Shown here piece after piece: positions 1,154 through 53,276 of a stretch of 53,813 bases of DNA. Each line of letters starts with the position of its first letter. Within the stretch, counting starts at the first letter, position 1. The notes beneath the pieces are model-generated. The model saw only the letters and a list, made by a program, of their open reading frames with translations, was not told the DNA's origin and did not search any database. This DNA is from a virus: the IMG/VR virus record IMGVR_UViG_3300010885_072082, positions 1-53,813 of that record; one strand, given 5' to 3'. Position numbers and translations under genes: made by a program.

Positions 1154-1161
1154 ATTAAATA
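1154..1161 (+). promoter_or_regulatory. Late-promoter octamer for the tail-tube-cap gene
   Basis: ATTAAATA, a T4-type late promoter match, ends exactly 5 nt before the ATG at 1167. With T4 late-promoter geometry transcription would start on the A of the start codon. Confidence 0.6.
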
Positions 1162-1166
1162 CTTTT

Positions 1167-2498
1167 ATGGGTAACTTTTTATGGAGCTTTACAAATGGTA
1201 ATAATAACCAGGGCCTCGGCTATATAGGATCTGGTACTACATTACTACCAGGCATAGTTCCAGCGGGACTTTTTTCTCTTAATTCTATACTTGCTAATGG
1301 ATCTAATTATAATACCCCCCATACAATCGATGTAGTTAAGGATTTTTATTGGACATATTCAAAACCAGGTGATATAAGCAGATCTGAAGTACCATATATT
1401 CTTTTAACCGAACGAAAATTAAAGAGTAATGCATTGATAGCTCAATTGAAATATTCCTACGGTAGAGCGTATAGTAGCGGTACTGAGACATTAAACAACT
1501 TATTAGGAACGACTGGTACACTTGGAACAGCTATCGGTAACGATATTAATGGCGCTTCACCTTCACTAGCACAACTTATTAAATCTTCTATTACAGCCAC
1601 CGCAAACGGGATAGGTCTTGCAGCACAAGGTACAGCAAATTTGCTTGGAGGAGCCGGTACCGCTATAGCAAATGCTATTCCACGGACTACAAAAGAGATT
1701 AGTAAGTACGGTGCTGCTGTTGTTGATGCTGCAATAAACGCTACATCAGATAATAATACAACAGTTAATAGTAGTCCATATCTTGAACCATACAGAGATT
1801 TGTACATAACAGACGTTACAGGGTGGAAATATAAATTACCTTATTTTGATAACAATCAAGCTAATCAAGGTAATAGTTTTTCCGAAAACGGTAAAGTCGG
1901 TGGATTAGGTGAATTATTTGGTATTGCACCAGCTGTTGCTGAATTCGGTACAGCAGCTGCTGAAATCGTCTCGTCGATCAATTCACCGACAGAAATTACA
2001 TATATTGAACGTACTAAATTTTATAATTATCCGACAGAAGGTGAAGATATTAATATAGAATTTCCCTTAATTAATACCGGAGAAGTTACTTATGACGATG
2101 TTGTTAGAAATTGGCAATTTTTATTTTTATTAGTTTATCAAAATAGACCGGCAAAAACATCGAGAAACACAGTAGATCAACCTGTAATTTATCAAGCTGA
2201 GATACCCGGTATTAAATTTTTTCCATTTTGTTATATGACTTCTATTAATATAGAATTTGTTGGTTCAAGACGTGAGATGTCTCTTAGTATACCATCAGGA
2301 ATAACATCTAATACAAGTAACGGTACTGCAGGTGATACTGTATCTAATCAAGTACAATTTTCTAATGTTAATGCTATTATTCCAGACGCATATAGGGTTA
2401 GATTATCGTTAAAGAGCATGACTGCTAATTCTAGAAACTTTATGCAGCATATGGTATCTACACATAATTTAATTGAAACAGGTACCGTAGGCGGTTAA
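1167..2498 (+). CDS. Baseplate tail-tube cap/initiator protein (gp48/gp54-like)
   Basis: 443 residues. The N-terminal part holds a P-Y-I-L-L-T-E-R-K stretch. The middle (about residues 105-190) is rich in Gly, Ala and Thr. The C-terminal third carries an I-P-D-A-Y-R-V element followed by L-K-S-M-T-A-N-S-R-N-F, which resembles the conserved end of T4 gp48/gp54 proteins that sit between baseplate hub and tail tube. Its place between a tape-measure-like gene and gp53/hub genes supports this. No Shine-Dalgarno sequence is seen; a late-promoter octamer sits 5 nt before the start. The assignment rests on motif memory and synteny, not on a search. Confidence 0.55.
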   Translation: MGNFLWSFTNGNNNQGLGYIGSGTTLLPGIVPAGLFSLNSILANGSNYNTPHTIDVVKDFYWTYSKPGDISRSEVPYILLTERKLKSNALIAQLKYSYGRAYSSGTETLNNLLGTTGTLGTAIGNDINGASPSLAQLIKSSITATANGIGLAAQGTANLLGGAGTAIANAIPRTTKEISKYGAAVVDAAINATSDNNTTVNSSPYLEPYRDLYITDVTGWKYKLPYFDNNQANQGNSFSENGKVGGLGELFGIAPAVAEFGTAAAEIVSSINSPTEITYIERTKFYNYPTEGEDINIEFPLINTGEVTYDDVVRNWQFLFLLVYQNRPAKTSRNTVDQPVIYQAEIPGIKFFPFCYMTSINIEFVGSRREMSLSIPSGITSNTSNGTAGDTVSNQVQFSNVNAIIPDAYRVRLSLKSMTANSRNFMQHMVSTHNLIETGTVGG

Positions 2499-2529
2499 AC
2501 ACATTATACTTACATTCTTAGAATATAAG

Positions 2530-2537
2530 AGTAAATA
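2530..2537 (+). promoter_or_regulatory. Late-promoter-like octamer before the gp53-like gene
   Basis: AGTAAATA lies 6 nt before the ATG at 2544. It matches the TAAATA core seen at the other late genes, with a G in the second position. Confidence 0.45.
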
Positions 2538-2543
2538 TATTAT

Positions 2544-2912
2544 ATGGTTACCGGGCAGTACCAAAAACAAATTTCAGCTTTACCTACCTTAAATAGCTAT
2601 CGGTATGAAAACATTTTAAAGATGTATCAAACCGATAAAGGTAATCAATATTATTATAATTTACTACAATCTATTTTTTTACCAGATAATTTAGACAAAC
2701 GTGCACTTACTAATATGGTTATTCGTGCAAATCAACCATGGACTACTGTAAGTTTTAACGCATATGGTACTATCGAGCTTTGGTGGTTAATTTTATTAAC
2801 AAATAAAATTTATAATCCTTTTGAAACACCAAAACCTAATACAGTAATAAAAATTATTAGACCAGAATATATACCAGATATTCTTAAAGAGATATCAGCA
2901 AGATTGCAATAG
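2544..2912 (+). CDS. 53: Baseplate wedge protein, gp53-like
   Basis: 122 residues. The second half reads like the gp53 family: a Y-G-T-I-E-L-W-W-L-I-L-L segment near residues 74-85, then N-P-F and a V-I-K-I-I-R-P-E-Y-I ending. gp53 is a baseplate wedge component that locks neighbouring wedges together in T4. The protein is shorter than T4 gp53 (about 196 residues), as in many T4 relatives that keep only the core domain. The next gene starts 2 nt after its stop, so translation is probably coupled with the hub gene. Confidence 0.7.
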   Translation: MVTGQYQKQISALPTLNSYRYENILKMYQTDKGNQYYYNLLQSIFLPDNLDKRALTNMVIRANQPWTTVSFNAYGTIELWWLILLTNKIYNPFETPKPNTVIKIIRPEYIPDILKEISARLQ

Positions 2913-2914
2913 CT

Positions 2915-4567
2915 ATGGAAGACGTCATACAAGATCCATACTCGCATAAAATAAATAACAATTATTACTTTTTTAAAGTAACACTTGTGAGTATTGCTGG
3001 TGATCAATCTAGGGCACAGGACATCAAGCCTTCTGCTATTAAATCATTTGTTATTAATGATAATTTTACAAATTTTTATCAAAATGGATATATTGTTATT
3101 AATAACTCCTACGATGCTCTAGAGCGCGATACATATCAATATGATGATGTAAACTACTATAATAATGCTGGTAATGTAACTAGTAATCAAGATGCAGGAT
3201 TTGTATTTCGAGGTGATGCAAGAGATATTTTACATGTAGAAATTATGCCTAGATTAGATGATACAGGTACTGATATCACAGGATCAAAGTTAGCACAGGG
3301 ATTTTTTAGAATGAGTTATGATTTTGCAATTTATAATTCCGAAGAAATACCAGGTGATTCACCAGAAAGAAAATTTAAAAAATTATATTTTTGGGATTTA
3401 TATTACCAGTTATTAACCGAAAAAAATACTTTCTTTTCAACAGCATTACTACCCGGTGTTTCTGGAACTACAACAAACCTTGATGATAAAAACCGTGCTG
3501 TTAGCACAGGAGTTGCAATTAAAGAATTATTAAAAGCAGCGTTCCCCGACAACGATGGTTACCCTATCTATTTTTCTGAAAATTCTGCAGGTATAAATAT
3601 TACAAATTATACACAAGATCAAATTGATAATGCTAATATTGATTGGGACATAGGTGGTACGAATATTTTCTTTTCATCACCTGCTAACTATAAGGCAATA
3701 GACAGTTTAAATTATCTTCTATCTCGTCATGTATCAAATGCAGCAAGCAATTTTGATCAGTGTTTTTTACGACTTGATAGATATCCTAGACAATTTAAAC
3801 TGAATAGTCTTGAGCAATATTTTAAACAAGCTTATAATCCTTCAAACGACACTACAGGTAATTATTATCTCGAGACATTAAGATTAGGTGGACTTACTGA
3901 TGCAGATGGTAAGAGTAAGACGGATAATTATTTTACACCTAAAGATGGTCTATATTTTGAACGCATAGGTACAATAAAGAGTTTCTCTTTTGATAATATG
4001 CCCGGTGTCTATTCTCAGCAAAAAATCAATACTCGCGCCGTACACAGCTACGATTATGAAAATAAGCTCTTTAATATTGAATTAGTAAGAAATGGTGTTG
4101 AGCAGGCTATGAAGACATTTCAAGCCAATTATGTTAATCAACTCAATAGTGGTGGAGCTGAACCGTCATTTCCTAATTTTGCCCCCGGTCAATTAAGATA
4201 TAGTAATAAGAATATTCATCATGAATTTTCTGTTGTTAGTCAAGATTCCGATCAACGTCTTGCTTTTGGAAGAAATAAATTTTTATACGCTAGTGTTTTT
4301 AGCAATAATTTAATAACATTTAGATTACCTGGATCTACCCATCGTCAGGCAGGGTTTTTTATTGGTATTGATCGTGATGGTGCTATACCGGCTAGTAAAT
4401 TTGATAATAAATTATTAGGTATATATCTTATTATACAAGCTAATCATATCTTCAGCGGTGGTGAATACTACAATGACCTCCATTGTATTAAAACATATAA
4501 TTTCAGGCAATTAGATAATACATATAACGATGCAGATAATAAAGGCCTGATCTCTTACGGACCATAA
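2915..4567 (+). CDS. Baseplate hub protein (gp27-like)
   Basis: 550 residues. It starts with a basic beta-rich region containing K-S-F-V-I-N-D-N-F and G-Y-I-V-I-N-N, followed by a region with F-W-D-L-Y-Y-Q-L and a long C-terminal beta domain. This pattern, with its size and position between gp53 and a lysozyme-like gene, fits the gp27 hub family whose trimer forms the base of the tail tube and carries the spike. No Shine-Dalgarno sequence precedes the ATG, which lies 2 nt after the gp53 stop. Family assignment is by context and general resemblance; a structure prediction would show whether the two gp27 tube domains are present. Confidence 0.5.
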   Translation: MEDVIQDPYSHKINNNYYFFKVTLVSIAGDQSRAQDIKPSAIKSFVINDNFTNFYQNGYIVINNSYDALERDTYQYDDVNYYNNAGNVTSNQDAGFVFRGDARDILHVEIMPRLDDTGTDITGSKLAQGFFRMSYDFAIYNSEEIPGDSPERKFKKLYFWDLYYQLLTEKNTFFSTALLPGVSGTTTNLDDKNRAVSTGVAIKELLKAAFPDNDGYPIYFSENSAGINITNYTQDQIDNANIDWDIGGTNIFFSSPANYKAIDSLNYLLSRHVSNAASNFDQCFLRLDRYPRQFKLNSLEQYFKQAYNPSNDTTGNYYLETLRLGGLTDADGKSKTDNYFTPKDGLYFERIGTIKSFSFDNMPGVYSQQKINTRAVHSYDYENKLFNIELVRNGVEQAMKTFQANYVNQLNSGGAEPSFPNFAPGQLRYSNKNIHHEFSVVSQDSDQRLAFGRNKFLYASVFSNNLITFRLPGSTHRQAGFFIGIDRDGAIPASKFDNKLLGIYLIIQANHIFSGGEYYNDLHCIKTYNFRQLDNTYNDADNKGLISYGP

Positions 4568-4570
4568 AAA

Positions 4571-8738: not shown

Positions 8739-9194
8739 ATGTCAGAAATTGATCCAAATCTCATTTATATGCCAATCTTAAAATTTGAAAAGACACATGA
8801 TCTTGCTAAGCTACCAACCAAAAACCACGAATCAGATACTGGTTATGATGTATATAGTATCGAAGACAAAATAATTCCTGCTAGAGGTAGTGCTGTTGTA
8901 GGTGTAGGTTTAAAGTTTGCTTCTATTCCTGATGGTTATTGGGTTAAGGTTGAAGCACGTAGTGGACTAGGTTTTAAGAGCGGCATTCAACCACATCCTG
9001 GTATTATTGATAATGCCTACCGCGGTGATGCAGGTATTAAACTTTACAATTTTACAGATGTTGATTACCAGGTAAAGGTTGGTGATCGTATAGCGCAATT
9101 TGCTATTTATATGAATATTCATATGGCAGTTGATTGGGGTAAGGTTGAAACTACAGATAGAGGTGAAAAGGGATTTGGGAGCTCAGGCAAATAA
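8739..9194 (+). CDS. dut: dUTP diphosphatase (dUTPase)
   Basis: 151 residues with all five trimeric dUTPase motifs in order: motif I D-T-G-Y-D (33-37), motif II A-R-S-G-L (73-77), motif III G-I-I-D-N-A-Y-R-G-D (88-97), motif IV V-G-D-R-I-A-Q-F (114-121) and motif V R-G-E-K-G-F-G-S-S-G (141-150). Motif III supplies the usual uracil-pocket Tyr and metal-site Asp, and motif V the Phe that stacks on the base. The enzyme hydrolyses dUTP to dUMP and pyrophosphate, keeping uracil out of phage DNA and feeding dTMP synthesis. Its stop codon overlaps the start of the clamp-loader gene by one base, so the two form an operon. Confidence 0.95.
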   Translation: MSEIDPNLIYMPILKFEKTHDLAKLPTKNHESDTGYDVYSIEDKIIPARGSAVVGVGLKFASIPDGYWVKVEARSGLGFKSGIQPHPGIIDNAYRGDAGIKLYNFTDVDYQVKVGDRIAQFAIYMNIHMAVDWGKVETTDRGEKGFGSSGK

Positions 9195-10126
9195 TGTCTT
9201 ACGATTTTCAAAGCCTCTGGGTGGAGCGGTATAGACCTAAAACTTTATCTGATTTTATTTGTACAGAAGAAGTAAAGAATTTTATTATAAGCTTTAAACA
9301 GAAAGAAGAAATACCAAATTTACTTTTTATAGGAAACCCGGGTATTGGTAAGTCTTCGCTAGCAAAAATCATTGTTAATGATGTTTTAGGTTGTCAATAT
9401 CTCTATATTAATGCTTCTGATGAGAACGGTATTGATACAATAAGAACTAAGGTTACTCATTTTGCACAAACTAAAAGTATTGACGGTAAGATTAAAGTAA
9501 TTATTCTTGATGAGTTCTGTGGGGTCTCGCTCGAAGGTCAGCGCGCTTTGAGAAATACTATGGAGGAATATGCTGGTATTACAAGATTTATTTTAACAGC
9601 TAATTACAAATACAAAGTCATACCCGCTATTCAGAGTAGATGTCAAGGTATTGATCTTACACCTCCTCAAGACTTAGTTATAAGAAAGTGTGCAAGTATT
9701 CTTAAGCAAGAAAGAGTTGCTGTTGATGATAGTCAAAAAGTATCGTTAGTTAAACTTATAAAGTCGCTTTATCCAGATCTTAGAAAGTGTATTAATGAAC
9801 TACAGAAGTGTTCTACCTCTGGTAAGCTGGTATTATCTGCTATTGACAACAACGAAGTGCTTTCTTTGATTTATACTGAAGTAAAAAATAAAAATATCGA
9901 GGTTATACGTAAGGCTATTATTGAATCTGAACAGACGTTTAATGCTGATTACATCAATCTTCTTAGACAGCTCTTTAACTATATAGATAGTAACGAAACA
10001 AATACAGAACTTAAGAAGATGTACTTACTAACAGTAGCTGAATATCTGTATAGAGGTCAGTTTGTCCCTGATCAAGAAATTAATTGCTATGCCTGTCTTT
10101 TATCCCTAGCCGATATTAAGCTTTAA
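9194..10126 (+). CDS. 44: Sliding-clamp loader large subunit (gp44-like AAA+ ATPase)
   Basis: 310 residues, close to T4 gp44 (319). The N-terminus has the clamp-loader signature W-V-E-R-Y-R-P-K (9-16). Walker A is G-N-P-G-I-G-K-S-S (47-55), Walker B V-I-I-L-D-E-F-C (102-109), sensor 1 I-L-T-A-N-Y (133-138), and the S-R-C motif with its arginine finger is at 148-150. In T4 a gp44 tetramer with one gp62 loads the gp45 clamp onto primer-template junctions, and gp45 also activates late transcription. No gp62 or gp45 gene is visible here. The ATG overlaps the dUTPase stop codon. Confidence 0.92.
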   Translation: MSYDFQSLWVERYRPKTLSDFICTEEVKNFIISFKQKEEIPNLLFIGNPGIGKSSLAKIIVNDVLGCQYLYINASDENGIDTIRTKVTHFAQTKSIDGKIKVIILDEFCGVSLEGQRALRNTMEEYAGITRFILTANYKYKVIPAIQSRCQGIDLTPPQDLVIRKCASILKQERVAVDDSQKVSLVKLIKSLYPDLRKCINELQKCSTSGKLVLSAIDNNEVLSLIYTEVKNKNIEVIRKAIIESEQTFNADYINLLRQLFNYIDSNETNTELKKMYLLTVAEYLYRGQFVPDQEINCYACLLSLADIKL

Positions 10127-10729: not shown

Positions 10730-10737
10730 TATTTATG
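10730..10737 (-). promoter_or_regulatory. Late-promoter octamer for the 199-aa minus gene
   Basis: Read on the minus strand, CATAAATA lies 7 nt before the ATG at 10722. It is one half of a divergent late-promoter pair with the gp25 promoter. Confidence 0.6.
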
Positions 10738-10771: not shown

Positions 10772-10779
10772 AATAAATA
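10772..10779 (+). promoter_or_regulatory. Late-promoter octamer for gp25
   Basis: AATAAATA ends exactly 5 nt before the GTG at 10785, so with T4 geometry transcription would start on the G of that codon. This also supports GTG as the true gp25 start. Confidence 0.65.
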
Positions 10780-10784: not shown

Positions 10785-11291
10785 GTGGCAACTATCAAGT
10801 TAACTTCGCTCATTGACAGCCCTCCTAAAACCTACGATAATTGGAGGTATACAGATTTACATTTAGATTTCAACCCTGTCTATAAAAGAGCTCCATTCGG
10901 TCAATTTACGCGTAATAATGAAGTATTACGTGAAGGTGAAATAGTAGACATAGCAGTAGATCATGATTTAGGAGCAATAAAAAATTCATTAGTTAATTTA
11001 TTTTTAACTATACCTGGTCAAAAAATCTTAAACCCATATTTTGGTATTAATTTACTTAGATATCTTTTTGAGCCATGTAGTGTGAGTATAGCGGATTTAA
11101 TAGGTAATGAAATAGTAGCAGGTATTACAAAATTTGAACCGAGAGTTATTTTACAAAAAGTTCGTGTAATAGCTGACCCGGAAAACAATCAATATATAAT
11201 AACAATTATTATTTCAATTCCTACAGTAGATACTGGTAGTTTACAACTAGTGGGTAAATTAAGTACTTCAGGCTTTGTTTTTGTTTCATAA
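10785..11291 (+). CDS. 25: Baseplate wedge protein gp25-like (TssE/gp25 family)
   Basis: 168 residues from a GTG start. An in-frame start at 10674 is possible but would overlap the divergent minus-strand gene and lie upstream of the late promoter; the ATG two bases before the GTG leads into an early stop. The family signature is clear: P-Y-F-G-I-N-L-L-R-Y-L-F-E-P followed by F-E-P-R-V, containing the conserved E-P-R core motif of gp25 and T6SS TssE. gp25 links the wedge to gp53, gp6 and the sheath and helps nucleate sheath assembly. gp6 follows after 3 nt. Confidence 0.85.
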   Translation: MATIKLTSLIDSPPKTYDNWRYTDLHLDFNPVYKRAPFGQFTRNNEVLREGEIVDIAVDHDLGAIKNSLVNLFLTIPGQKILNPYFGINLLRYLFEPCSVSIADLIGNEIVAGITKFEPRVILQKVRVIADPENNQYIITIIISIPTVDTGSLQLVGKLSTSGFVFVS

Positions 11292-11294: not shown

Positions 11295-13145
11295 ATGGCT
11301 AATACTACACAATATAATGATTTTAATTTACCCATAGACGGGTATGCTGCGTTTGATGCTTTAAGCCTAAAAAATTTAATAATCAAGCGCTTAAATTCAT
11401 CTAATACATATACAGATCAACGCTATGAGGGCAGCAATCTATCAGCAGTGATTGACATTATTGCTTATGCATATCATGTTCTATTGTTTTATCTAAACCG
11501 TACAAGCTCAGAAAGCACATTTACTACTGCTGAGCTTTATGAAAATGTCAATAAAATTGTTAAATTAATAGGTTACAATCCAATAGGTAAACAGACATCA
11601 ATTTTACCATTCAAAGCTACAAGCAACGGTAATCTTGAAGTAGGTACATTTACAATTCCTAGATATTCTTTCTTTAATATTAACGGTACAGTATATTCAT
11701 TTAATAATGATATTACATTTACAAATCCTAGTAGTAAGCAGGGATCTTTAATGGATCTTCAAGATAATAACTTACTCTATCAAGGTGTATATACTGAATA
11801 TCCTTCTTATTTTGCTACAGGTGCACCTAATGAAACTATAATCATGGCACTTACCGATCCTAATGGTCAAAACATTAGTATTGATCATTTTAATATAGAT
11901 GTTTATGTTAAGGATAACAGCGTAACAAACGCTAAATGGGTAAAATGGACAGCAACACAATCTTTATTTTTAGAGCGCTCAAACGCAACAAAATATGAAA
12001 TAAGACTCAATGAAAATAGTAGATATGAAATTAAATTTGGTGATAATATAGCTGGTAAGCAACTATCACTAAATTCTGAAGTTGCTATTTATTATCTACA
12101 AACTGCAGAGGCGAAAGGTGAAATCGGACTCGGCTTGCTCGATAATAAGCTACTGTATTTCTATAAGACGACAAGATATAATTCTATTCTTGCAGATACG
12201 TTCTCTGTCAATCTTACACCTCTAACACAACTTCAGTCTAAAAACATTTTGTTTACAAATACTGAGTCTTCTACACAATTTATCGATATTGAAGATGCAA
12301 ACAGTATTAAATCTAATGCACCAAAAACATTTAGAAGCCAGTTCAGACTTATAACTACCGATGACTTTATAACATATATAAGTAAAAACTATAGTAATAT
12401 TATTTCTTCTGTTAAAGTTGTTAATAATTATGATTATATCTCAGGTCATATGAAATACTTTTTTGACTTGGGTGTAACAAATCCTAATAACGAGTCACGT
12501 GTACTTTTTAATCAGGTTAAATTTTCTAATACTTGCAATTTTAATAATGTATACATTTATGCAGTACCTAAATTAATTAAAACATCATCTCTTAATACTA
12601 GAACAAATTATCTCAATAATACACAAAAGCAGTTAATTATTAACGAACTACAAAACGTAAAATTAACAACTGCAGAAATTATAGTAAATGATCCTGTATA
12701 TACTGCAGTAGATCTCGGTATAGCGGCTGTAGATGAAAAGCTTTTACCTTCTATATCTGATACCACGAATCTCGTTATAACAAGATCATTTACTTCAAAA
12801 ATAGACGAAGCACATATAAAGCAAGTAATTTCTAGCATTTTTACAAAATATTTTTCTACTACAAATGACAATCTTGGCTTAAAATTATCAATTACTGATC
12901 TGACAAATCAAATATTAGCTATCGAAGGTGTACTTAATATCAGCACTCAACGCACGATTAACGGTGTATTAAACACCGTACCTGGTATAAGTCTTATGCT
13001 TTATAATCCTGTATATTCGGATACAGATATAGTTATTATAACACAAGATATCAATTTACCGTATTTTAAGTTTCCATATCTCAATAACCAATCAAATTTT
13101 GCTAACAAGATAAAGGTTATTAATTCAAATACATTGAGTATATAA
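11295..13145 (+). CDS. 6: Baseplate wedge protein gp6-like
   Basis: 616 residues, near the 660 of T4 gp6. The N-terminus has the family pattern A-Y-A-Y-H-V-L-L-F-Y-L-N, then L-Y-E-N-V-N-K-I-V-K-L-I-G-Y-N-P, which matches the start of gp6/J-type baseplate proteins. The rest is a chain of beta-rich domains, with a conserved-looking dimerisation region near the C-terminus. gp6 forms the ring that joins the wedges around the hub. It directly follows gp25, the usual gp25-gp6 pairing of contractile injection systems. No Shine-Dalgarno sequence; 3 nt gap suggests coupled translation. Confidence 0.8.
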   Translation: MANTTQYNDFNLPIDGYAAFDALSLKNLIIKRLNSSNTYTDQRYEGSNLSAVIDIIAYAYHVLLFYLNRTSSESTFTTAELYENVNKIVKLIGYNPIGKQTSILPFKATSNGNLEVGTFTIPRYSFFNINGTVYSFNNDITFTNPSSKQGSLMDLQDNNLLYQGVYTEYPSYFATGAPNETIIMALTDPNGQNISIDHFNIDVYVKDNSVTNAKWVKWTATQSLFLERSNATKYEIRLNENSRYEIKFGDNIAGKQLSLNSEVAIYYLQTAEAKGEIGLGLLDNKLLYFYKTTRYNSILADTFSVNLTPLTQLQSKNILFTNTESSTQFIDIEDANSIKSNAPKTFRSQFRLITTDDFITYISKNYSNIISSVKVVNNYDYISGHMKYFFDLGVTNPNNESRVLFNQVKFSNTCNFNNVYIYAVPKLIKTSSLNTRTNYLNNTQKQLIINELQNVKLTTAEIIVNDPVYTAVDLGIAAVDEKLLPSISDTTNLVITRSFTSKIDEAHIKQVISSIFTKYFSTTNDNLGLKLSITDLTNQILAIEGVLNISTQRTINGVLNTVPGISLMLYNPVYSDTDIVIITQDINLPYFKFPYLNNQSNFANKIKVINSNTLSI

Positions 13146-13157: not shown

Positions 13158-16100
13158 ATGTCAACATATCTTAAACAAACCCATATTCTTTATAACGTTG
13201 TTGATTATACAAATCAAAATGTACTGTCTACCTATTCACTTTCTTCTACACCATTAAAATTTATTCCTGATTTTACAACATCTAATTTACTATCAGGTAC
13301 AAGAGTCTTTTCAAATAAAATATTGAGATGGGATTTCGGTGATGGTAATTTTTCAAATGAACTAACACCTATTCATTGGTATAAATGGCCTGGTCAGTAT
13401 GCTGTAGCGTTAACGGTATATGATAATTACGGTGAGGCTTACGATAGTACCTATAACACTACTATTAATGTCTATGATTTTATATCTACAAAAATTGACT
13501 ATATTGATACCGGTAAAATAATTTTTGATATACCTGCAGGTCAATTATCAGACCCTATAGATATCAATACCTACAGTAGCTGGCAGAATACAAAATATAT
13601 AACAAAAAATGGATTTACAGTAAACTTATATGCGTCTGGCGCAAGAGGTGATTATGAATATATTGATAATGTTTTAAAGGATAAATGGACACATTTACGC
13701 TCTCTTAGCAGATTTTACACACTATCGACAGTTAATAATAATGCTTCATATACACCTATCGATAAATTATATATTAATCCTATACCTGTATATGCAAATA
13801 TAGAAAACAACAATATACAAATTTGTGAACCCGATGCCCCTGGTGCCTTATTAGTAGGCTTAACAGGCACAGGGCGATTCTGGTATACTGATGATAGACC
13901 AGGACAACTTACAACAGAAGATAATCCTATTTTTATTTTTGCTACACTTGATAATAAAGGATTTAATGACAGCTTCACTATAAAGAATAATTCTTACGAT
14001 GTAATATCATACCCGCCTGCAGGATATCAAACCATAGAACCTGTAGTAATTTCAAATATTAAAATCAGATTTAACCCTGCTGCAAGACTCACCGTAACAA
14101 CAACAGGTATAGATGGAGAAGGTAATGAACCTATAACATCATTTGATATACCTGTTATTAGCTGGCAGAACACAGATATTCCATATATAGTAAAATTTAA
14201 AAATCAAAATAGTTATACAACAAAAAATTACCCCCCACTCTCTTCCTCTAGTGTCACAAACGTTGTATATGATTTAGATATACCGTATTATAATTTACAA
14301 ACCGGTATTTTATATAAAGACGAATCTGGGATATATCAACCGTTAAGCGGTGTTACATTTTATGAAGATTTTAATGAAAATTCACCTCAATCGCTAGGAG
14401 CGTTTTATAAAGGGTTTTTTATACCAACACAATCTTCTGAAAATTGCGTTCTCACGGCATCTATTACATTATTGGAACCTGTATATTATGCAAAAGATGC
14501 ACTTGTAGGTTGGATATCTGTACCGTCATATAGCTCAGCTTTTCAGATTTTAAGAAGCAGTAATTATTCAGGCTTCGATAATAGTGTATCTGTATCATTC
14601 ATAGATAATAATCCCTTTGTAAACACAGAAACTAATTTTGGTATATACGGTATAACTGTGGCACCCTCTGGAGCAACAAGTAATCTTGATTATCAAACTT
14701 GGTTTGCTGACGCCTATAATGATACTATCATAAAATATGATATATATGGTAATTTACAATCACTATATTATACAACAGATATAAACAATAATAAAACATA
14801 TTTTTATAATATACCACTATCTGCAGCACCAACTATCGTAAATAACGTTGTTACGTTCGTTGATTATAGATCACCAACACTCTCAATAGCTACACCAACA
14901 CAAATAGCACTCGACAGTTATAGTGACCTCTGGGTTTCTCTTGTAGATAGTGGTTATGTATTAAAGATTAATAATACTACAGGTTATATTGTTTGTGTTG
15001 CGGTACCAAGTGGTACTAATCTAGATCTCTCATTAAGTGGTAGCTACAATCAATATAATGGCGTCGCCGGTGATGGCTTATTTGAACCATCATCAGTAGA
15101 TACTGATTTAGATAATAATATCTGGGTATGTTATACTAATCCTGCATCCGCTATGGTGATAAAATACCGTGGTATAGGTAATTTTACGTTAAACGCTGAT
15201 ATTCTCAATACCATAACCTTTCCTACAAATATAGTACCAGATGAAGTTTTTACAGATAGAAATAGAAATGTCTGGGTAACCACAACAAATTACAGCAGCA
15301 ATAATAACACATTTGATACACGTAATGACCTCCTTTACAAATTTGATATAGAGGGTAATCTCTTACCGGGGTACCCTTTAAGCGGGTTTAAAGGCTTTGC
15401 TTATATTACAATAGACGTAAATCAAAACGCATGGATTGCACATGGCAGAAATCTAATAACAAGAGTAGATGGATTAACAAATGTAATAACTAATTATTCA
15501 CCCTTTATTGATGCAAACAATACCGATGGTAATATAACAGATTATATTTGTAGTATAGGTGGTATAACAAGTGACACAGCAAATAATCTCTGGGTAATTA
15601 ATAATTTTAGTCAAAAGCTGTGTATATTTGATATTAAAAATGCTACAGATAAAGTATTACCAATAAAAAATGTATTCGAGCTTAATTACCCTACATCTGA
15701 TATATTACCTATTAGTAGTTACAATACGCCGATAGATATATCTAATCTACCTTACAGTAGCACAGGTGTAAAAGAATTCAGAGCTTACGGTGATTGGAAT
15801 GGATTTAGATGGATAAATAAATATTCTGCACCACAGAGTACTGTAAGAACAATAACAGGTTCATCAAATCTATTCAACATTTACCCCTCAACAGGTAAAG
15901 ATAATATCTCTAAATTAAATGAAAATTGGAATGCATCTGGATACTATAACAACCTTAGATATCAAGAATCGTTAGTTGATAAAAATGTATTTTTTAATGA
16001 TTTTCTTGGTGTAATTTTAGGCAATATTTCAGCTCAACCTTATGAACTAGGCAAAACAATTTACGAAAAGATTGCTAATTTTACAGATAATAACGCTGAT

Positions 16101-20840: not shown

Positions 20841-21104
20841 TTATTTATTGCTCACGACAATAGATCCCCACTTTTTTAATGGGCATTCCGTCGTAATCAT
20901 CTTTAATTTAACCTCAAGAGAACACCCACAAATTCTACAACCACCAGTGTTTAAATATACATTTTTATCGTATCCCTCTTCACATTTTTCACATAGTGCC
21001 ATTCTCTCCTTAAACTGCTCGGCTGTAGTCAAACCAAAATCATTCCTCACCCATTCCGCTATATCTTCTGTAACGGTCTTAATTTTATTGAACAGAGAAG
21101 GCAT
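20841..21104 (-). CDS. Small zinc-ribbon-like phage protein
   Basis: 87 residues. Cysteines are arranged as C-E-K-C, then G-G-C-R-I-C-G-C, then E-C-P-L-K-K-W, giving seven cysteines including two C-x-x-C pairs. The G-C-x-x-C-G-C...C-P-x-x-K-W layout is one I associate with small phage zinc-binding proteins of the DUF6171 type. It probably binds one or two zinc ions; the target is unknown. Its start overlaps the end of the 157-aa gene by 20 nt. Confidence 0.6.
   Translation of the reverse strand: MPSLFNKIKTVTEDIAEWVRNDFGLTTAEQFKERMALCEKCEEGYDKNVYLNTGGCRICGCSLEVKLKMITTECPLKKWGSIVVSNK
20842..20849 (-). promoter_or_regulatory. Late-promoter octamer for the 150-aa structural gene
   Basis: Minus-strand AATAAATA lies 6 nt before the ATG at 20835. 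It overlaps the last codons of the upstream zinc-ribbon gene, so promoter and coding sequence share bases. Confidence 0.6.
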
Positions 21105-22531: not shown

Positions 22532-22539
22532 TATTTAAT
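22532..22539 (-). promoter_or_regulatory. Late-promoter octamer for the 86-aa gene
   Basis: Minus-strand ATTAAATA ends 5 nt before the ATG at 22526, one of the exact-spacing cases. Confidence 0.6.
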
Positions 22540-24505: not shown

Positions 24506-24513
24506 TATTTATT
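24506..24513 (-). promoter_or_regulatory. Late-promoter octamer for the holin-endolysin genes
   Basis: Minus-strand AATAAATA ends exactly 5 nt before the ATG at 24500. It overlaps the stop codon of the 36-aa mini membrane gene. Confidence 0.65.
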
Positions 24514-24633: not shown

Positions 24634-24762
24634 CTAAAATAGGATACCAATGAGAAAGCCTAGTATGAATATAGCAATCGCAATTGCAGTCTTTGGATTA
24701 TTAGATATCCAAAGTGTTGTATTATTAATACTGCTGGAAATAAATTGTAAAATTTTATCCAT
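24634..24762 (-). CDS. Mini membrane protein, 42 aa
   Basis: A 42-residue frame beginning M-D-K-I-L-Q-F-I-S-S with one strong hydrophobic segment at the C-terminus (T-A-I-A-I-A-I-F-I-L-G-F-L-I-G-I-L-F). A late-promoter octamer lies exactly 5 nt before its ATG, which strongly supports it as a real late gene despite its size. Its location in the lysis block suggests a pinholin- or antiholin-like role. Confidence 0.6.
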   Translation of the reverse strand: MDKILQFISSSINNTTLWISNNPKTAIAIAIFILGFLIGILF

Positions 24763-24767: not shown

Positions 24768-24775
24768 TATTTAAT
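24768..24775 (-). promoter_or_regulatory. Late-promoter octamer for the 42-aa membrane gene
   Basis: Minus-strand ATTAAATA ends 5 nt before the ATG at 24762, the same exact spacing as at larger late genes. Confidence 0.6.
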
Positions 24776-26626: not shown

Positions 26627-26634
26627 TATTTATT
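26627..26634 (-). promoter_or_regulatory. Late-promoter octamer for the collar-domain fibre
   Basis: Minus-strand AATAAATA lies 9 nt before the ATG at 26617. Confidence 0.55.
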
Positions 26635-31533: not shown

Positions 31534-31541
31534 TATTTATG
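31534..31541 (-). promoter_or_regulatory. Late-promoter octamer for the 139-aa and 1492-aa fibre genes
   Basis: Minus-strand CATAAATA lies 6 nt before the ATG at 31527. Confidence 0.6.
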
Positions 31542-38309: not shown

Positions 38310-38317
38310 TATTTAAT
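38310..38317 (-). promoter_or_regulatory. Late-promoter octamer for the 467-aa adhesin
   Basis: Minus-strand ATTAAATA ends exactly 5 nt before the GTG at 38304 and so supports GTG as the start codon. Confidence 0.65.
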
Positions 38318-42164: not shown

Positions 42165-42172
42165 TATTTATT
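42165..42172 (-). promoter_or_regulatory. Late-promoter octamer for the 1192-aa fibre
   Basis: Minus-strand AATAAATA lies 12 nt before the ATG at 42152, the longest spacing of the set. Confidence 0.5.
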
Positions 42173-46066: not shown

Positions 46067-46074
46067 TATTTATG
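46067..46074 (-). promoter_or_regulatory. Late-promoter octamer for the 961-aa fibre
   Basis: Minus-strand CATAAATA lies 9 nt before the ATG at 46057, divergent from the octamer at 46093-46100. Confidence 0.55.
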
Positions 46075-46092
46075 GTGTAGGCTTCATAGTTC

Positions 46093-46100
46093 CCTAAATA
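46093..46100 (+). promoter_or_regulatory. Late-promoter octamer for the 376-aa membrane protein
   Basis: CCTAAATA ends exactly 5 nt before the ATG at 46106. With the minus-strand octamer it makes a compact divergent late-promoter pair in 48 bp. Confidence 0.6.
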
Positions 46101-46105
46101 CTATA

Positions 46106-47236
46106 ATGGAAGGTCTATTAAAATTTTTAGTAAAAGAAGCTATTACAGATGATAATAAATTACCTGAATATAGAACTATTTTCGGATTTACTACGTATAG
46201 CAAGGTAGCAGCAATCGCAATTGATATTGTCTATTGGTTTATTGTTTTTGTTGCGTATTGTTTTGCTTTTCATGCATTAAACAATATTCTCATTACATGG
46301 AATTGGTTTCTAGTAGGTTTAGCATGCTTTGCTGTTATAGGGTTACCATATTGTGTCAAAATTATTCTATTCGGTAGAAAGGAGTTCCCTTTCAAAGCAG
46401 CTCTTTTATGTTTATTTTTAAGTTTACTACCAACAATCTTTGATTTTACCGGTCTTTATTCAGAAACTGGACTCCAAGATAGTTTAAAGACGAGTAAAAT
46501 ACAAATAACTGATATGCTTTCATACTTTGAAGCGGAAAGTAAGAAAGCTGTACAGATACAAGAACTCAATATTCAAAATGAAGGTAGAGATAAAAAACTA
46601 GTGATTGAAAAAAATTTAAACCAAACAGTAACTGATATTAAAAAAGAGATTGAGGATGCCAACCAACAAGTACTCGATGAGAGGGAAGGTATACGAGGTA
46701 AGGCGGGTGACGGGCCAAGGGTTAAAGAATTGAAATCCGATCTTCGTAAGCTTCAAGCACAATCTGACATTGAGGTACAAAAAGCGAAGTCAGAAATTAA
46801 ACAACAATCACAAGCCATTGATCAAGAAATACAAGATAAGTTATTAGCACTCAATAATTCAACAAAACTCCTTAATGACAAACTAACAAATTGTAAGAAG
46901 AGCGTCAATAATACTAATAATTTTAGAGACCTCGAGGTTTCTGTAATTGATGCAAATAGTCTTATATCTTCTATTGCTTCAAATCTTGATATTAAATTCG
47001 TTCCTGTAAAGATTCAAGGATCTGATAACATCATTAAAGTATCTTTTGGATCTCTGGTCAATGGTGATATCACCGCGTTTGTTTGCCTATTATTATCATT
47101 TCTTATGGAAGTAGGTGATATTATTATTACATTTGTAATGAGATATGAAAAGAAGAGACCGATGTCTATCATCGAAAATAACGATAACCAAGTAATCAGT
47201 AATCGCAAATTTTCAAAAACTTACGAAGGATATTAA
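46106..47236 (+). CDS. Membrane protein with long coiled coil, 376 aa
   Basis: The start at 46106 is chosen because the late-promoter octamer lies exactly 5 nt upstream; an earlier in-frame start at 46007 would run through the divergent fibre gene. Three hydrophobic segments lie at about 33-58, 64-88 and 96-113, a long charged coiled coil spans about 125-285, and a fourth membrane segment is near 325-350 with a basic tail. The layout resembles phage inner-membrane proteins that act in lysis timing, superinfection exclusion or host-membrane remodelling, but no family is recognised. Its end overlaps the deaminase gene by 4 nt (convergent). Confidence 0.65.
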   Translation: MEGLLKFLVKEAITDDNKLPEYRTIFGFTTYSKVAAIAIDIVYWFIVFVAYCFAFHALNNILITWNWFLVGLACFAVIGLPYCVKIILFGRKEFPFKAALLCLFLSLLPTIFDFTGLYSETGLQDSLKTSKIQITDMLSYFEAESKKAVQIQELNIQNEGRDKKLVIEKNLNQTVTDIKKEIEDANQQVLDEREGIRGKAGDGPRVKELKSDLRKLQAQSDIEVQKAKSEIKQQSQAIDQEIQDKLLALNNSTKLLNDKLTNCKKSVNNTNNFRDLEVSVIDANSLISSIASNLDIKFVPVKIQGSDNIIKVSFGSLVNGDITAFVCLLLSFLMEVGDIIITFVMRYEKKRPMSIIENNDNQVISNRKFSKTYEGY

Positions 47237-49342: not shown

Positions 49343-49358
49343 CTTTCAACTTTTCTTA

Positions 49359-49387
49359 TTGCAATTTTTTTCTATATTTCCTATTAT
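49359..49387 (+). promoter_or_regulatory. Sigma70-like promoter for the 96-aa gene
   Basis: TTGCAA and TATTAT are 17 bp apart; the -10 box ends 8 nt before the ATG at 49396, again predicting almost no leader. Confidence 0.45.
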
Positions 49388-49395
49388 TATTTTTT

Positions 49396-49686
49396 ATGAT
49401 GAACGCAGCAGAAATTAACGCAAGGTTTAAAAGGAGTATCTCCAAAGATTCTTCAACTCTTACCTGTATTGTTACCGGTAAAGTACGACCTACAAACGCG
49501 GCATATCTTGAAGGAAAGGGAGACAAAGAGAAGTTCATTCAACATTACATCTGCCGTGATGTATTAACTCTTCTCAAGAAGGGATTATCTGTTATCGAAG
49601 TACGTGAAAAGCTCGGAATTCAAGGTACTATTCCTATTCCAAGCCAAGCTACAATTGATGTAGCGTTAGAAATAAACGGAAAATAA
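49396..49686 (+). CDS. C-[IV]-V-T-G domain protein, short paralogue
   Basis: 96 residues, almost only the domain shared with the 197-aa protein at 47863: L-T-C-I-V-T-G-K-V-R, F-I-Q-H-Y-I-C-R, L-L-K-K-G-L-S-V-I-E-V-R-E-K-L. The last segment looks like a helix-turn-helix-type helical pair. It lacks the Lys-rich head and the C-terminal four-cysteine motif. Two ATGs begin the frame; either may be used. Similar small proteins occur in other large phages, without known function. Confidence 0.6.
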   Translation: MMNAAEINARFKRSISKDSSTLTCIVTGKVRPTNAAYLEGKGDKEKFIQHYICRDVLTLLKKGLSVIEVREKLGIQGTIPIPSQATIDVALEINGK

Positions 49687-49688
49687 GC

Positions 49689-49717
49689 TTGTAATTCCTT
49701 CTCAATTCCATCACAAT
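49689..49717 (+). promoter_or_regulatory. Weak sigma70-like promoter for the RadA-like gene
   Basis: TTGTAA and CACAAT are 17 bp apart, with the -10 box ending 6 nt before the ATG at 49724. The -10 is poor, so this is tentative. Confidence 0.25.
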
Positions 49718-49723
49718 AATAGC

Positions 49724-50635
49724 ATGAAACTTAATCATATTGCATCCACAAGCTTTACCGCTGTCAAAGACATTCAGATTCCCTCGATCTATTATCGCCG
49801 TGTACAATCAGGAATTCCTGAAATTGATGATATGTTCGGAGGTGGTATTCTTCCTGGGTCTACCATTACTCTTTCGTCAAAGGCAGGAGTTGGTAAGAGT
49901 ACAGCGGTACTTCAGATCCTTAACGGTATGTCGAAGAGCGGTAGGAACGTTGGTTATATTAGCGCTGAGGAGTCAATTCATCAGGTTGCCTTTAGTTGCC
50001 GTCGACTCGGTATTGAGGATGTTGGGATCTGCAATGAAAGTAATTTTAAGAAAATTCTTTCCTTTATGGATGGTATGGATGTCATTGTTATTGATTCGTT
50101 TCAAGCAATGAATCGCGGTAATCTTGACGAGAAGCAAGCGATTGAGATGCTCATTCAACATGCTAAGGAGACGGAGTGCGCTGTGATTATTATCTGTCAT
50201 CTGACTAAAGGAGGAGTTATGCGCGGTAATAATCTCCTTACCTACGCCGTCGATGTAAATATGTTTGTTGAGATCGGTGAAACCCCTGGTCTCCGCCGCA
50301 TCTACTTTAGTAAGAATCGCTTTGGACCTGGAATTGATTATACCTGCTCGTTTACTGGTAGTGGTTACGACTTTACACCGATCGTTGCTACCGAGGGTGA
50401 AGAGAAGAAAGGCAAGAAGACTGAAAAGAAGGAGAAGGCAAAGGATAATATTCTTAAGCTTGAAGGGCTATTCAATGTCTCCGATGTCTGCAATCAACTA
50501 AACATTGATGCAACCCGAGCTGGTTATCTTCTTCGAGAATTGACCCTTGAAGGCCGTCTTCTTAAGAACAACAAGCGCGGGATTAAAACTAAGTGGAAGG
50601 TAAATAAGGTTGAAGCTACAATTACAAAACACTAA
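49724..50635 (+). CDS. RadA/Sms-like RecA-fold ATPase
   Basis: 303 residues. G-I-P-E-I-D-D-M-F-G-G-G (30-41) starts the RecA-like core; Walker A is S-K-A-G-V-G-K-S (52-59), Walker B V-I-V-I-D-S (120-125), and S-K-N-R-F-G-P-G (196-203) contains the K-N-R-F-G motif characteristic of RadA. The N-terminal zinc finger and C-terminal Lon-like domain of bacterial RadA are missing; instead a Lys/Glu-rich linker leads to a winged-helix-like end (about 245-295). RadA drives branch migration and loads DnaB-type helicases at recombination forks, so a role in phage recombination-dependent replication is likely. Codons are more GC-rich than in late genes. Confidence 0.75.
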   Translation: MKLNHIASTSFTAVKDIQIPSIYYRRVQSGIPEIDDMFGGGILPGSTITLSSKAGVGKSTAVLQILNGMSKSGRNVGYISAEESIHQVAFSCRRLGIEDVGICNESNFKKILSFMDGMDVIVIDSFQAMNRGNLDEKQAIEMLIQHAKETECAVIIICHLTKGGVMRGNNLLTYAVDVNMFVEIGETPGLRRIYFSKNRFGPGIDYTCSFTGSGYDFTPIVATEGEEKKGKKTEKKEKAKDNILKLEGLFNVSDVCNQLNIDATRAGYLLRELTLEGRLLKNNKRGIKTKWKVNKVEATITKH

Positions 50636-50639
50636 TCAT

Positions 50640-50780
50640 ATGAACGCTGGAAAAGGGTCAAAAGACACACGAGTCAAAGATAGAAAGAAGTATAAGGAAA
50701 ACTTCGACGCTATTAAATTTAAAAATAAAACTAACGAAGGTTTTATCAAGGTTAAGGGAAAGCTTGTAAAGAAGTATTAG
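50640..50780 (+). CDS. Small very basic protein, 46 aa
   Basis: 46 codons starting M-N-A-G-K-G-S-K-D and ending L-V-K-K-Y; about one third of residues are Lys or Arg. It begins 4 nt after the RadA-like stop and its own stop is followed by the next ATG after 1 nt, so it sits tightly in an operon. Position next to RadA and composition suggest DNA or RNA binding. Unrecognised. Confidence 0.55.
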   Translation: MNAGKGSKDTRVKDRKKYKENFDAIKFKNKTNEGFIKVKGKLVKKY

Positions 50781-50781
50781 T

Positions 50782-51429
50782 ATGACACCCGAGAAATTTG
50801 AAGCACGGAATCACAAGCTTCGCTGTGATTTTGCTGATATGGAGGCTTATGAAAAATCATTTCGCTGTAAGCTTAATGACTTCCTGTACGATAGGTTTGG
50901 TGTAAGAAAGGCCTGGCAGTTGATTCCTTTTGTTCCTCGTTGGGCTGATATTTATTATTACGAAAAGATTAAACCTATTTTCTGTCCACAGAACGCACGC
51001 TATCGTAAAATTATTCCAAGAACATGGTCTGATGTTTCCTCTCTTATTGAGACAGTAAATTTTGAATTTATTAAAGGGTTCTATGAAGGAGAATACCTTC
51101 ACGGGCATACAGATTGGGAGGGAACAGGAAAGCATGCTGTAGAGTTTGCTCGTTGGTTGGAGTCAGCTTATGACTATATTACTATTGAACGCCCACAGCT
51201 TGAAAAAGACATGGATAACGCCTATCCACCATTCCGTCCTCTTGATGAGATGTTTGTACCGTGTGAAACAGATGAAAGAGGAAAGGTAAAAATGCTAAAG
51301 ATGGTAGACGACGGTAAAACATACGAGGAAAAGTATGGTGAAGTTAATCGTCTTGAACAACTTATTCAAAATAAGGATACAGAAATTCTTTTACAATTAA
51401 TGAATTACAGGCACTTCTTTTGGTCATAA
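50782..51429 (+). CDS. Hypothetical phage protein, 215 aa
   Basis: 215 residues, alpha-helical and rich in aromatics (R-A-W-D/A-D-I-Y-Y-Y-E-type segment, W-L-E-S-A-Y-D-Y-I-T-I-E-R-P-Q-L-E-K). I have a sense of a family with Y-D-Y-I-T-x-E-R-P in other phages, with no known function. It is the fourth gene of the plus-strand operon that starts with the short C-[IV]-V-T-G gene. Confidence 0.6.
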   Translation: MTPEKFEARNHKLRCDFADMEAYEKSFRCKLNDFLYDRFGVRKAWQLIPFVPRWADIYYYEKIKPIFCPQNARYRKIIPRTWSDVSSLIETVNFEFIKGFYEGEYLHGHTDWEGTGKHAVEFARWLESAYDYITIERPQLEKDMDNAYPPFRPLDEMFVPCETDERGKVKMLKMVDDGKTYEEKYGEVNRLEQLIQNKDTEILLQLMNYRHFFWS

Positions 51430-51435
51430 AAAAAG

Positions 51436-51443
51436 ATTAAATA
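51436..51443 (+). promoter_or_regulatory. Late-promoter octamer for the 82-aa gene
   Basis: ATTAAATA lies 9 nt before the ATG at 51453 (and 4 nt before an out-of-frame ATG at 51448). Confidence 0.45.
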
Positions 51444-51452
51444 ATTCATGCC

Positions 51453-51701
51453 ATGTCACAGCTTGAAACCAATTTTATTAATCCTATACGATCACCTAAA
51501 TTTGACGGAAATACCATTAAGTGGTCAGGTTATTTCAATACATCAGAACAAGCACAAAAGCATTTAGATGAAAAAACAAAAGCTTTTGCGGGGACTGAAC
51601 ACAAACTGGTAGTTAGTGCTAAGAGTGAATTTGTTAATAGGCACTTTAAAGGGTATTTTCTCTATCGCTTTACCGTAATTATGGCTAATAGAGATAGTTA
51701 A
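51453..51701 (+). CDS. Hypothetical protein, 82 aa
   Basis: 82 residues with an alpha/beta pattern (I-K-W-S-G-Y-F-N-T-S-E-Q-A, H-K-L-V-V-S-A-K, F-L-Y-R-F-T-V-I-M). It precedes the HAD gene by 1 nt, so the two are translated together. No function recognised. Confidence 0.55.
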   Translation: MSQLETNFINPIRSPKFDGNTIKWSGYFNTSEQAQKHLDEKTKAFAGTEHKLVVSAKSEFVNRHFKGYFLYRFTVIMANRDS

Positions 51702-51702
51702 T

Positions 51703-52287
51703 ATGAATTTAACCTCCCAGCAAAACATACGCATATTCAGTGATTTAGATGGTCTCCTGACCGATCTTTTTTCAGCAATTAGTCTCAAGCTCTTTAACAA
51801 GCATTATAGAGACATTACACCGGAAGAAAAAAAAGAAGCTAAAAAGATCTGGTATGATAGAGCACACTTTATTAAAAACTTCGGAAATGTAGAAGAGTTC
51901 TTTGCTACTCTACCACCTTTTGGTAAAAACGGAGATATAACAAACGCAATCATTGATACCATTGTACAATTTGACCGTAATTATTCTGCATGTTCTCACC
52001 CTGCTGGTATTGATATCCAGGCTTGTAAAAGGGGAAAGATTACCTGGATTAGAACACACCTTCACCCTCAGCCTAAGGAGATGTTGTTTCCACAAAATAA
52101 AGCAATTTATGCTATGGGTGAAGACGGTATCCCAAATGTTCTTATTGACGATTTTCCTCCTTATATAAAATCATGGAGAGATGCCGGTGGTATTGCTATA
52201 GAAATGCGTACAGATAGCTTTAATAGCCCGGAAGAGGTAAGAGACTATCTAACAAAAGAATTAACTAAAGAGCTAAAGAACAAATAA
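51703..52287 (+). CDS. HAD-superfamily phosphatase, 5'(3')-nucleotidase-like
   Basis: 194 residues. Motif I is F-S-D-L-D-G-L-L-T-D (12-21) with nucleophile Asp14 and acid/base Asp16; the metal-binding motif is V-L-I-D-D-F (146-151), with D149 and D150. A helical cap lies between, and the end G-G-I-A-I-E-M is typical of the deoxyribonucleotidase branch of HAD enzymes. It may dephosphorylate nucleotides, adjusting pools for phage DNA synthesis together with the dUTPase and deaminase, or act on nucleic-acid ends. The exact substrate cannot be told from sequence. Confidence 0.7.
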   Translation: MNLTSQQNIRIFSDLDGLLTDLFSAISLKLFNKHYRDITPEEKKEAKKIWYDRAHFIKNFGNVEEFFATLPPFGKNGDITNAIIDTIVQFDRNYSACSHPAGIDIQACKRGKITWIRTHLHPQPKEMLFPQNKAIYAMGEDGIPNVLIDDFPPYIKSWRDAGGIAIEMRTDSFNSPEEVRDYLTKELTKELKNK

Positions 52288-52348
52288 ACAGTCCAGTAAA
52301 AGAATCATTTAGCGATTATGTGAATAAAATTCTTTCTAAATATTCTAC

Positions 52349-52376
52349 TTGACATATTAAGAAAAGATTATATATT
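52349..52376 (+). promoter_or_regulatory. Strong sigma70 promoter of tmRNA
   Basis: TTGACA (perfect) and TATATT with a 16-bp spacer. The predicted start near 52383 gives a leader of about 40 nt, including a hairpin GAGCA/TGCTC (52387-52401), before the mature tmRNA. Confidence 0.75.
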
Positions 52377-52403
52377 AAAAGAATAAGAGCAATAACTGCT
52401 CAA

Positions 52404-52416
52404 TGATCTTTGATAG
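52404..52416 (+). promoter_or_regulatory. boxA-like element in the tmRNA leader
   Basis: TGATCTTTGATAG resembles the rRNA antitermination boxA (TGYTCTTTRA type). The identical 13-mer recurs at 53565 before the terminal RNA. Confidence 0.45.
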
Positions 52417-52423
52417 ATAATTT

Positions 52424-52861
52424 GGGGGCGAATAGGATTCGACTGGTAATCGGATTTTATATTGCACGCAGTGGTTGAATACCTGGCCACTATAAAAGGT
52501 ATTTACAAACTAAACGCAGAAGATAATACTGATGCGCTCTTAGCTGAAGCTGAATACATCTTCAACCACGCAGACGAGTTCTGTATGGAAGAAGAGTATC
52601 TTCTCGCAGCCTAAAAACTAAGATTAGATCCTATTAAAGATCTTAGGAGCAAAGCAATAGGTTAGAGTGGCATCTACGACACTCGTAAAATAAGCGTAGG
52701 GGGTGGATGTGGACTCTTCACCATGTCAGGCAGACTCTAAAAGATAGGTTGGTAAGCCATGGGAGCCTTTAGTCAATCAAATCCTAAATTTACATAAGCG
52801 TGTAGAAAATATAACGAGAAGATTAGCAACACTCGGGAATCGATGCCCGACGCCTCCACCA
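52424..52861 (+). ncRNA. ssrA: tmRNA (transfer-messenger RNA)
   Basis: The 5' end GGGGGCGAATAGGATTCGAC and the 3' end with a T-arm and encoded CCA are canonical. The acceptor stem GGGGGCG/CGCCTCC contains the G3-U70 pair needed for alanine charging, with A as discriminator. The T-stem TCGGG/CCCGA encloses an 8-nt loop, one base longer than usual. The tag frame runs 52516-52614: 32 codons from GCA to TAA, starting A-E-D-N-T-D-A-L-L-A and ending E-E-E-Y-L-L-A-A, the last four matching the ClpXP degron type. It rescues stalled ribosomes with SmpB, for which no gene is seen here, so host SmpB is probably used. Confidence 0.95.
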
Positions 52862-52867
52862 CTTTTT

Positions 52868-52875
52868 AATAAATA
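52868..52875 (+). promoter_or_regulatory. Late-promoter octamer for the HNH gene
   Basis: AATAAATA begins 7 nt after the tmRNA CCA and ends exactly 5 nt before the ATG at 52881, showing the HNH gene is wired into the phage late programme. Confidence 0.65.
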
Positions 52876-52880
52876 TATGT

Positions 52881-53276
52881 ATGGCTTCAACACGTTTAGC
52901 TCATACAAGAGATATAGCACAAGGTAAGATACCTGCTGATGGACCCCAGCGATCACCTGAGTGGGCTAGGGTACGTAAAGAACACCTTAAGAATAATCCA
53001 AAATGTACAGTTTGTGAGGGCACCGATCGTTTAAATGTACATCATATTAAGCCTTTTCATCTACATCCAGAGTTAGAGCTTGACCCCACAAATTTAATTA
53101 CTCTATGCGAAAGCGCAAGTTATGGTATTATATGTCATATACTCATAGGTCATTTAGGAAATTATAAAAACATTAATCCAAATTCTGTAGAAGATGCTAA
53201 GATATGGAACGCTAAATTAAAAGAAAATAATTACGTAGATAATTTGCAAGTTCCTTTATCCGGTATTAATATATAA
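52881..53276 (+). CDS. HNH endonuclease
   Basis: 131 residues. A zinc knuckle C-T-V-C (42-45) precedes V-H-H-I-K-P-F (53-59), which holds the catalytic His; N-L-I-T-L-C-E (71-77) supplies the Asn, and C-H-I-L-I-G-H (85-91) the final His and second zinc half. The order C-x2-C, H-H, N, C/H fits HNH nucleases of the free-standing homing or packaging type. It is inserted neatly between tmRNA and the tRNA, so it may be a mobile homing endonuclease that spreads the RNA locus. Its exactly spaced late promoter shows integration into phage regulation. Confidence 0.85.
   Translation: MASTRLAHTRDIAQGKIPADGPQRSPEWARVRKEHLKNNPKCTVCEGTDRLNVHHIKPFHLHPELELDPTNLITLCESASYGIICHILIGHLGNYKNINPNSVEDAKIWNAKLKENNYVDNLQVPLSGINI

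Follow-up and report, generated by a model that had tools for sequence, protein, structure and literature searches.

Late promoters set against the start codon predict leaderless or near-leaderless late mRNAs in a freshwater clade of T4-related phages

In a whole clade of T4-related phages from freshwater, the late promoter appears to have merged with the start codon, and this placement very probably yields leaderless or near-leaderless late mRNAs. In T4, the textbook case of late transcription, the late mRNAs carry Shine-Dalgarno (SD) leaders. The stretch of DNA analysed here, termed the window, is a fragment of 53.8 kb (34% GC) from an uncultured myovirus related to T4. It encodes a gp44-like clamp loader (9194-10126), a dUTPase, gp25-like and gp6-like baseplate proteins (10785-11291 and 11295-13145), and tail-fibre and endolysin-like proteins. 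The best isolate matches to its gp44 reach only 38% identity, the relatives with 50-74% identity come from IMG/VR and are in many cases fragmentary contigs, and a tblastn search with a 1229-aa protein gave no match. In the mechanism that we propose, host RNA polymerase carrying a phage sigma factor of the gp55 family would recognise an octamer with a TAAATA core as the -10-like element of a T4-type late promoter. Where 5 nt separate the motif from the start codon (gap 5), the transcription start (+1), six bases after the motif, would coincide with the start codon's first base, and at gaps of 6-14 nt it would precede the start codon by up to about 9 nt. Late mRNAs would then begin at or just before AUG/GUG with no room for an SD sequence, and ribosomes would have to start on 5′-terminal or 5′-proximal start codons. 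What we infer from the DNA sequence is where +1 actually lies, that the motif genes lack longer transcripts, and how ribosomes enter.

The invariant part of the motif is the hexamer TAAATA, and the two bases preceding it vary. The initial annotation had placed this core exactly 5 nt before the start at eight genes on both strands, and our reading of the sequence agrees. On the plus strand, the octamers at 1154..1161, 10772..10779, 46093..46100 and 52868..52875 precede ATG 1167 (443-aa ORF; predicted +1 at the A of ATG), GTG 10785 (the gp25-like baseplate wedge), ATG 46106 (376 aa; the longest ORF runs from 46007) and ATG 52881 (131-aa HNH endonuclease). Those on the minus strand, at 22532..22539, 24506..24513, 24768..24775 and 38310..38317, precede ATG 22526 (86 aa), ATG 24500 (141 aa, upstream of the endolysin-like gene), ATG 24762 (a small ORF of 42 aa) and GTG 38304 (467 aa). 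A gap of 6 nt was likewise found at the three genes for which it had been claimed, ATG 2544 on the plus strand (2530..2537; 122 aa with a weak baseplate wedge/tail sheath match) and, on the minus strand, ATG 20835 (20842..20849; 150 aa) and ATG 31527 (31534..31541; 139 aa). Further genes do lie at 7-12 nt: ATG 10722 on the minus strand at 7 nt (10730..10737; 199 aa), three genes at 9 nt (ATG 26617, minus strand, 26627..26634, a tail fibre/collar protein of 390 aa; ATG 46057, minus strand, 46067..46074, 961 aa; ATG 51453, plus strand, 51436..51443, 82 aa) and ATG 42152 on the minus strand at 12 nt (42165..42172; 1192 aa). In total, 16 genes of the window have TAAATA 5-12 nt from their start, and the spacing is common to ATG and GTG starts, the latter at 10785 and 38304 with gap 5. 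At 46067-46106, two divergent late promoters, for 46057(-) and 46106(+), share a stretch of about 35 nt, back to back.

Coincidence, or the picking of convenient start codons in AT-rich DNA, might produce such a pattern, given that TAAATA is common at 34% GC (85 copies in the window, both strands counted). Our null model consisted of dinucleotide shuffles, with maxima for the window taken from 2000 of them, and only cores outside the longest possible ORF were counted, so that no start picking could enter. Gap 5 was found at 5 of 47 window genes against 0.12 ± 0.34 expected (maximum 3), gaps of 5-12 nt at 13 of 47 against 0.84 ± 0.93 (maximum 4), and gaps of 0-4 nt at none against 0.51 expected. 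The enrichment recurs in seven related contigs of 112-217 kb each, where gap 5 occurs 125 times against 3.6 expected and gaps of 5-12 nt 320 times against 24.8, with gaps of 0-4 nt near expectation (20 against 14.3). The pattern TAAATANNNNNATG has 382 copies in 26 relatives versus 71 for its reverse, and composition-matched hexamers have on average no such peak; hexamers overlapping the motif do peak, as expected. The shuffles exclude chance for the window, as the initial annotation had held, and for the seven contigs, and since conserved orthologue starts and both of these controls also stand against it, the probability of coincidence or start picking is practically nil.

N-termini and start codons are conserved among relatives, and the spacing can be followed gene by gene. 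Gap 5 is found at all but one of the 20 distinct sites among orthologues of gp25 (10785), though the flanks vary, and at 14 of 22 among those of 1167; the homologue of 52881 in the related contig G001 also has it. Relatives of 38304 retain GTG with gaps of 5, 5 and 6 nt, and the 42-aa ORF at 24762(-), flagged only by its promoter, has two homologues (in G006 and G010), both with gap 5. Elsewhere the distance moves by a few bases, being 6 nt in relatives of 31527, 6-7 nt in those of 24500, 8-9 nt in those of 22526, 5 and 7 nt in those of 20835 and mostly 7, 9 or 6 nt in orthologues of 10722; one relative of 46057 stands at gap 5, and the start codon at 2544 is not kept in most relatives. The suggestion that the spacing helps to pick starts thus holds for 10785, 38304 and 24762, where orthologues agree, and 46106 has no homologue aligned at its N-terminus. 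The spacing first ascribed to this phage is real here but not confined to it: short octamer-to-start distances are seen across the freshwater clade, even in contigs with gp44 identity as low as about 50%, and a smaller gap-5 set occurs in the cultured Pelagibacter phage HTVC008M.

Pooled over eight contigs, the gaps show an abrupt onset at 5 nt and decay by about 12, with 21 cases in all at 0-4 nt, then 130, 78, 36, 19, 36, 13, 9 and 12 at 5, 6, 7, 8, 9, 10, 11 and 12 nt, respectively, and background from about 13. The peaks at 6, 9 and 12 nt are partly built in because at these distances the motif's own TAA is a stop codon in frame and forces the longest ORF to start downstream. The T4 late octamer runs from -13 to -6, with A at -13 (PMC2988020), and its promoter contacts include A-12, A-9 and A-8 (PMC7892883); both sources agree with the position of about -13 to -6 assumed by the initial annotation, and a gap of 5 nt therefore puts +1 on the start codon. 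At gap-5 genes, position -12 is A in 60% and T in 28%. In motif genes with gaps of 7-14 nt, where base 6 after the core falls outside the start codon, that base is A or G in 80% of 141 genes (C in 3%; p = 2e-11), and late genes with leaders have their purine peak there too, in T4/KVP40 (75%), cyanophages (77%) and pelagiphage-like contigs (78%). At gap 5, the start codon itself supplies base 6, as A or G, and TTG is almost missing (about 1%).

The octamer-like element, a TAAATA core with mostly A/T at -12, stands before late-gene homologues but not early ones. Homologues of late genes 13, 15, 18, 19, 21 and 25 have the core at 5-10 nt, with gene 13 of G010 as the sole exception, and in gene 20 homologues its position is more variable. 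No core was found at 5-14 nt from early genes 41, 43, 44, 46, 47, 55, 61, uvsX and uvsY. Late genes 3, 4, 14 and 17 are mostly without a close core, as expected of operon-internal genes. In G001, G023 and G024, the start of gene 17 (terminase) adjoins a late-promoter core of opposite orientation, and the terminase mRNA therefore probably begins elsewhere in these three.

Could the AT-rich block be a translation signal, A-rich or Kozak-like as in SD-less bacteria, with the mRNA beginning further upstream? These genomes have no SD signal, and non-motif genes are also A/T-rich upstream with a start-anchored tendency to A-2 and T-1, both of which would suit that idea. However, T at +2 and a purine at +6 of the motif, with hardly any C at +6, follow the motif and not the start codon, and because the signal is anchored in this way we rejected the Kozak-like explanation. 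The one-sided cut-off at 5 nt suits +1, not ribosome contact; early genes lack the motif although they too need translation; and the motif agrees with the recognition sequence of gp55. A translation signal is thus highly improbable, and we hold the motif to be a T4-type late promoter, a reading well supported by these sequence comparisons, with a +1 predicted to fall within the 9 nt preceding the start codon or on the codon itself.

Even with a real late promoter, the spacing might be a by-product of a compact genome, the active +1 lying elsewhere or mostly longer read-through transcripts being translated. Many late genes do sit in co-directional clusters, and the frequency of gaps of 6-12 nt means that exact leaderlessness is not required. 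An upstream co-directional gene within 5 nt is found for 8% of motif genes versus 48% of others. Against the by-product reading, gap 5 is still the mode where at least 60 nt of intergenic space is free (33 of 90), so crowding is not the cause of the spacing, and compaction as its sole cause was rejected. The purine signature on base 6 after the core also runs against it, and we judge it very unlikely beside a late promoter that itself sets the 5′ end.

The factor expected to read such a promoter is present in the clade. A gp55 homologue (phrog_234) was found in all ten relatives searched, with E values from 7e-24 to 4e-28; within the window fragment itself gp55 was not identified. The relatives' gp55 retains the T4 promoter-reading residues L54, F86, Y97 and T99, with N13, R57 and H95 changed, and in G001, G004, G006, G010, G019, G023 and G024 it is without T4's C-terminal hydrophobic (clamp-binding) tail. 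Profile searches of seven relatives gave no credible phrog_254 match for the co-activator gp33, possibly explained by divergence of this small, fast-evolving protein, and no phrog_223 or PF02916 match for the sliding clamp gp45. The clamp loader gp44 is present in relatives where gp45 had no match, and a divergent clamp is therefore likely. Given unrecognisable gp33 and gp45 and the changes in the tail and residues of gp55, the mode of activation may depart from that of T4, with +1 possibly shifted by a base or two.

Among the 349 motif genes of the group, the predicted leader is 0 nt in 39% (136/349), 1 nt in 21% and 2-9 nt in the rest. The statement that most late structural mRNAs are leaderless was too strong, as exactly leaderless mRNAs are predicted for those 136 and for 8 of the 16 motif genes in the window. 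Operon-internal late genes are not leaderless and depend on upstream starts, and read-through from upstream promoters could also yield leadered copies of others. Nor are all motif genes structural: late homologues do carry the motif, but 52881 is an HNH endonuclease. SD sequences are indeed absent at the motif genes (0-3% SD-like), but other genes, with 4-11%, are at control level too, so their absence is not special to the motif, and translation in the host probably begins without SD sequences. In the relatives, no core lies close to the start of gp23, the major capsid gene; G001 alone has one further off, at 38 nt. The sequence upstream of this gene (L140, L141, L142, L143) is conserved, contains GGTCGAC together with a small inverted repeat (e.g., TTGAGGG...CCCTGAATAG), and may act as an mRNA-processing or stability element.

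A cultured test case is HTVC008M, whose starts were annotated independently of the motif. About ten of its genes, many of them late structural, have the core exactly 5 nt before the start, including tape measure, DNA end protector, head closure, tube cap and baseplate wedge, and no SD is possible between core and start. The 5-nt spacing occurs 14 times versus 4 for the reversed pattern, the clearest excess among 14 cultured phages scanned; the others are near control, with small excesses in T4 (10 versus 5) and a Rhizobium phage (6 versus 0). Unlike the clade, HTVC008M nearly lacks gaps of 6-12 nt and has a second late class with gaps of 13-40 nt and SD-like bases in 9 of 11. Only three such gap-5 genes are found in a related contig of 177 kb, and the habit therefore varies among pelagiphages. 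The 52 gap-5 sites in HTVC008M-like contigs were rejected as independent cases, since most seem to represent a single orthologue lying downstream of gp23, with N-termini that are mostly MT. For pelagimyophages, an earlier search for late promoters by the methods used on cyanophages reportedly failed (PMC7029224).

Ribosomal protein bS21 is encoded by at least 10 relatives (above the Pfam cut-off), among them G001 (167052-167213) and G010 (15868-16029), and by HTVC008M; the G010 gene has a late-promoter core 6 nt before its start. In freshwater phages, bS21 is expressed late and has been proposed to retune ribosomes (PMC9723584), and the HTVC008M protein enters E. coli ribosomes (PMC6375957). 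A coupled switch might be imagined, in which gp55 promoters emit leaderless structural mRNAs and late bS21 remodels host ribosomes toward 5′-terminal starts over leadered host mRNAs. We rate this switch as rather unlikely, and the link of bS21 with leaderless late mRNAs as attractive speculation. No bS21 was detected in G004 and G006, both of which show the spacing, and a requirement for it was rejected on that account, with the proviso that these contigs may be incomplete. As for the host, comparison of bS21 with PDB indicated no phylum, and bS21 and gp44 searches of genome contigs gave no match. Intergenic regions of the relatives are about six-fold enriched for TTG-N16-19-TATAAT upstream of genes, candidate early promoters, and the flavobacterial TAnnTTTG is not enriched there.

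If the prediction is true, a single sequence element fixes both transcript start and translation start for virion genes, and gene calling in freshwater phages can use the motif, as with the conserved 42-aa ORF. Large-scale leaderless translation would also become testable in SD-less bacteria and in SAR11 infected by HTVC008M.

With T4 late promoters (TATAAATA, gp55/gp33/gp45), the clade shares the -10-like element, a gp55-family sigma factor with most DNA-reading residues, and late structural genes on both strands. It differs in the distance from octamer to start, mostly about 24-28 nt with an SD between in T4 and 5-14 nt without SD in the clade, and in gp33 and gp45, which T4 has and which were not detected in the relatives. 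Cyanophage late promoters, known from S-PM2 and Syn9 (PMC2984593), likewise have the NATAAATA element, gp55 and a +1 purine at the same base, but the octamer lies mostly 18-30 nt from the start codon; in our scan, the distance is mostly 15-35 nt in Syn9, DSL-LC03, P-SSM2 and KVP40. The bS21-encoding phages described earlier (PMC9723584) are freshwater myoviruses like the clade, and the main text of that report does not treat promoters or leaderless mRNA. The late TATG promoters of phiKZ were rejected as a leaderless precedent, as transcription from them is reported to start on the G. No report of leaderless late mRNAs in T4-related phages was found in the open-licence literature, outside which most subscription journals and preprints lie. 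In bacteria with leaderless mRNAs, TA-like signals precede the start codon by about 10 bp (PMC3160421), and such mRNAs can be a small minority, as in Flavobacterium psychrophilum with only 5.5% of mRNAs (PMC9723704). These mRNAs and those of lambda phage share with the clade a -10 element some 10 bp upstream of the start and the lack of an SD; they use host sigma factors, whereas in the clade a phage late sigma would place a whole temporal class. T4-type late promoters and leaderless mRNAs are each already known.
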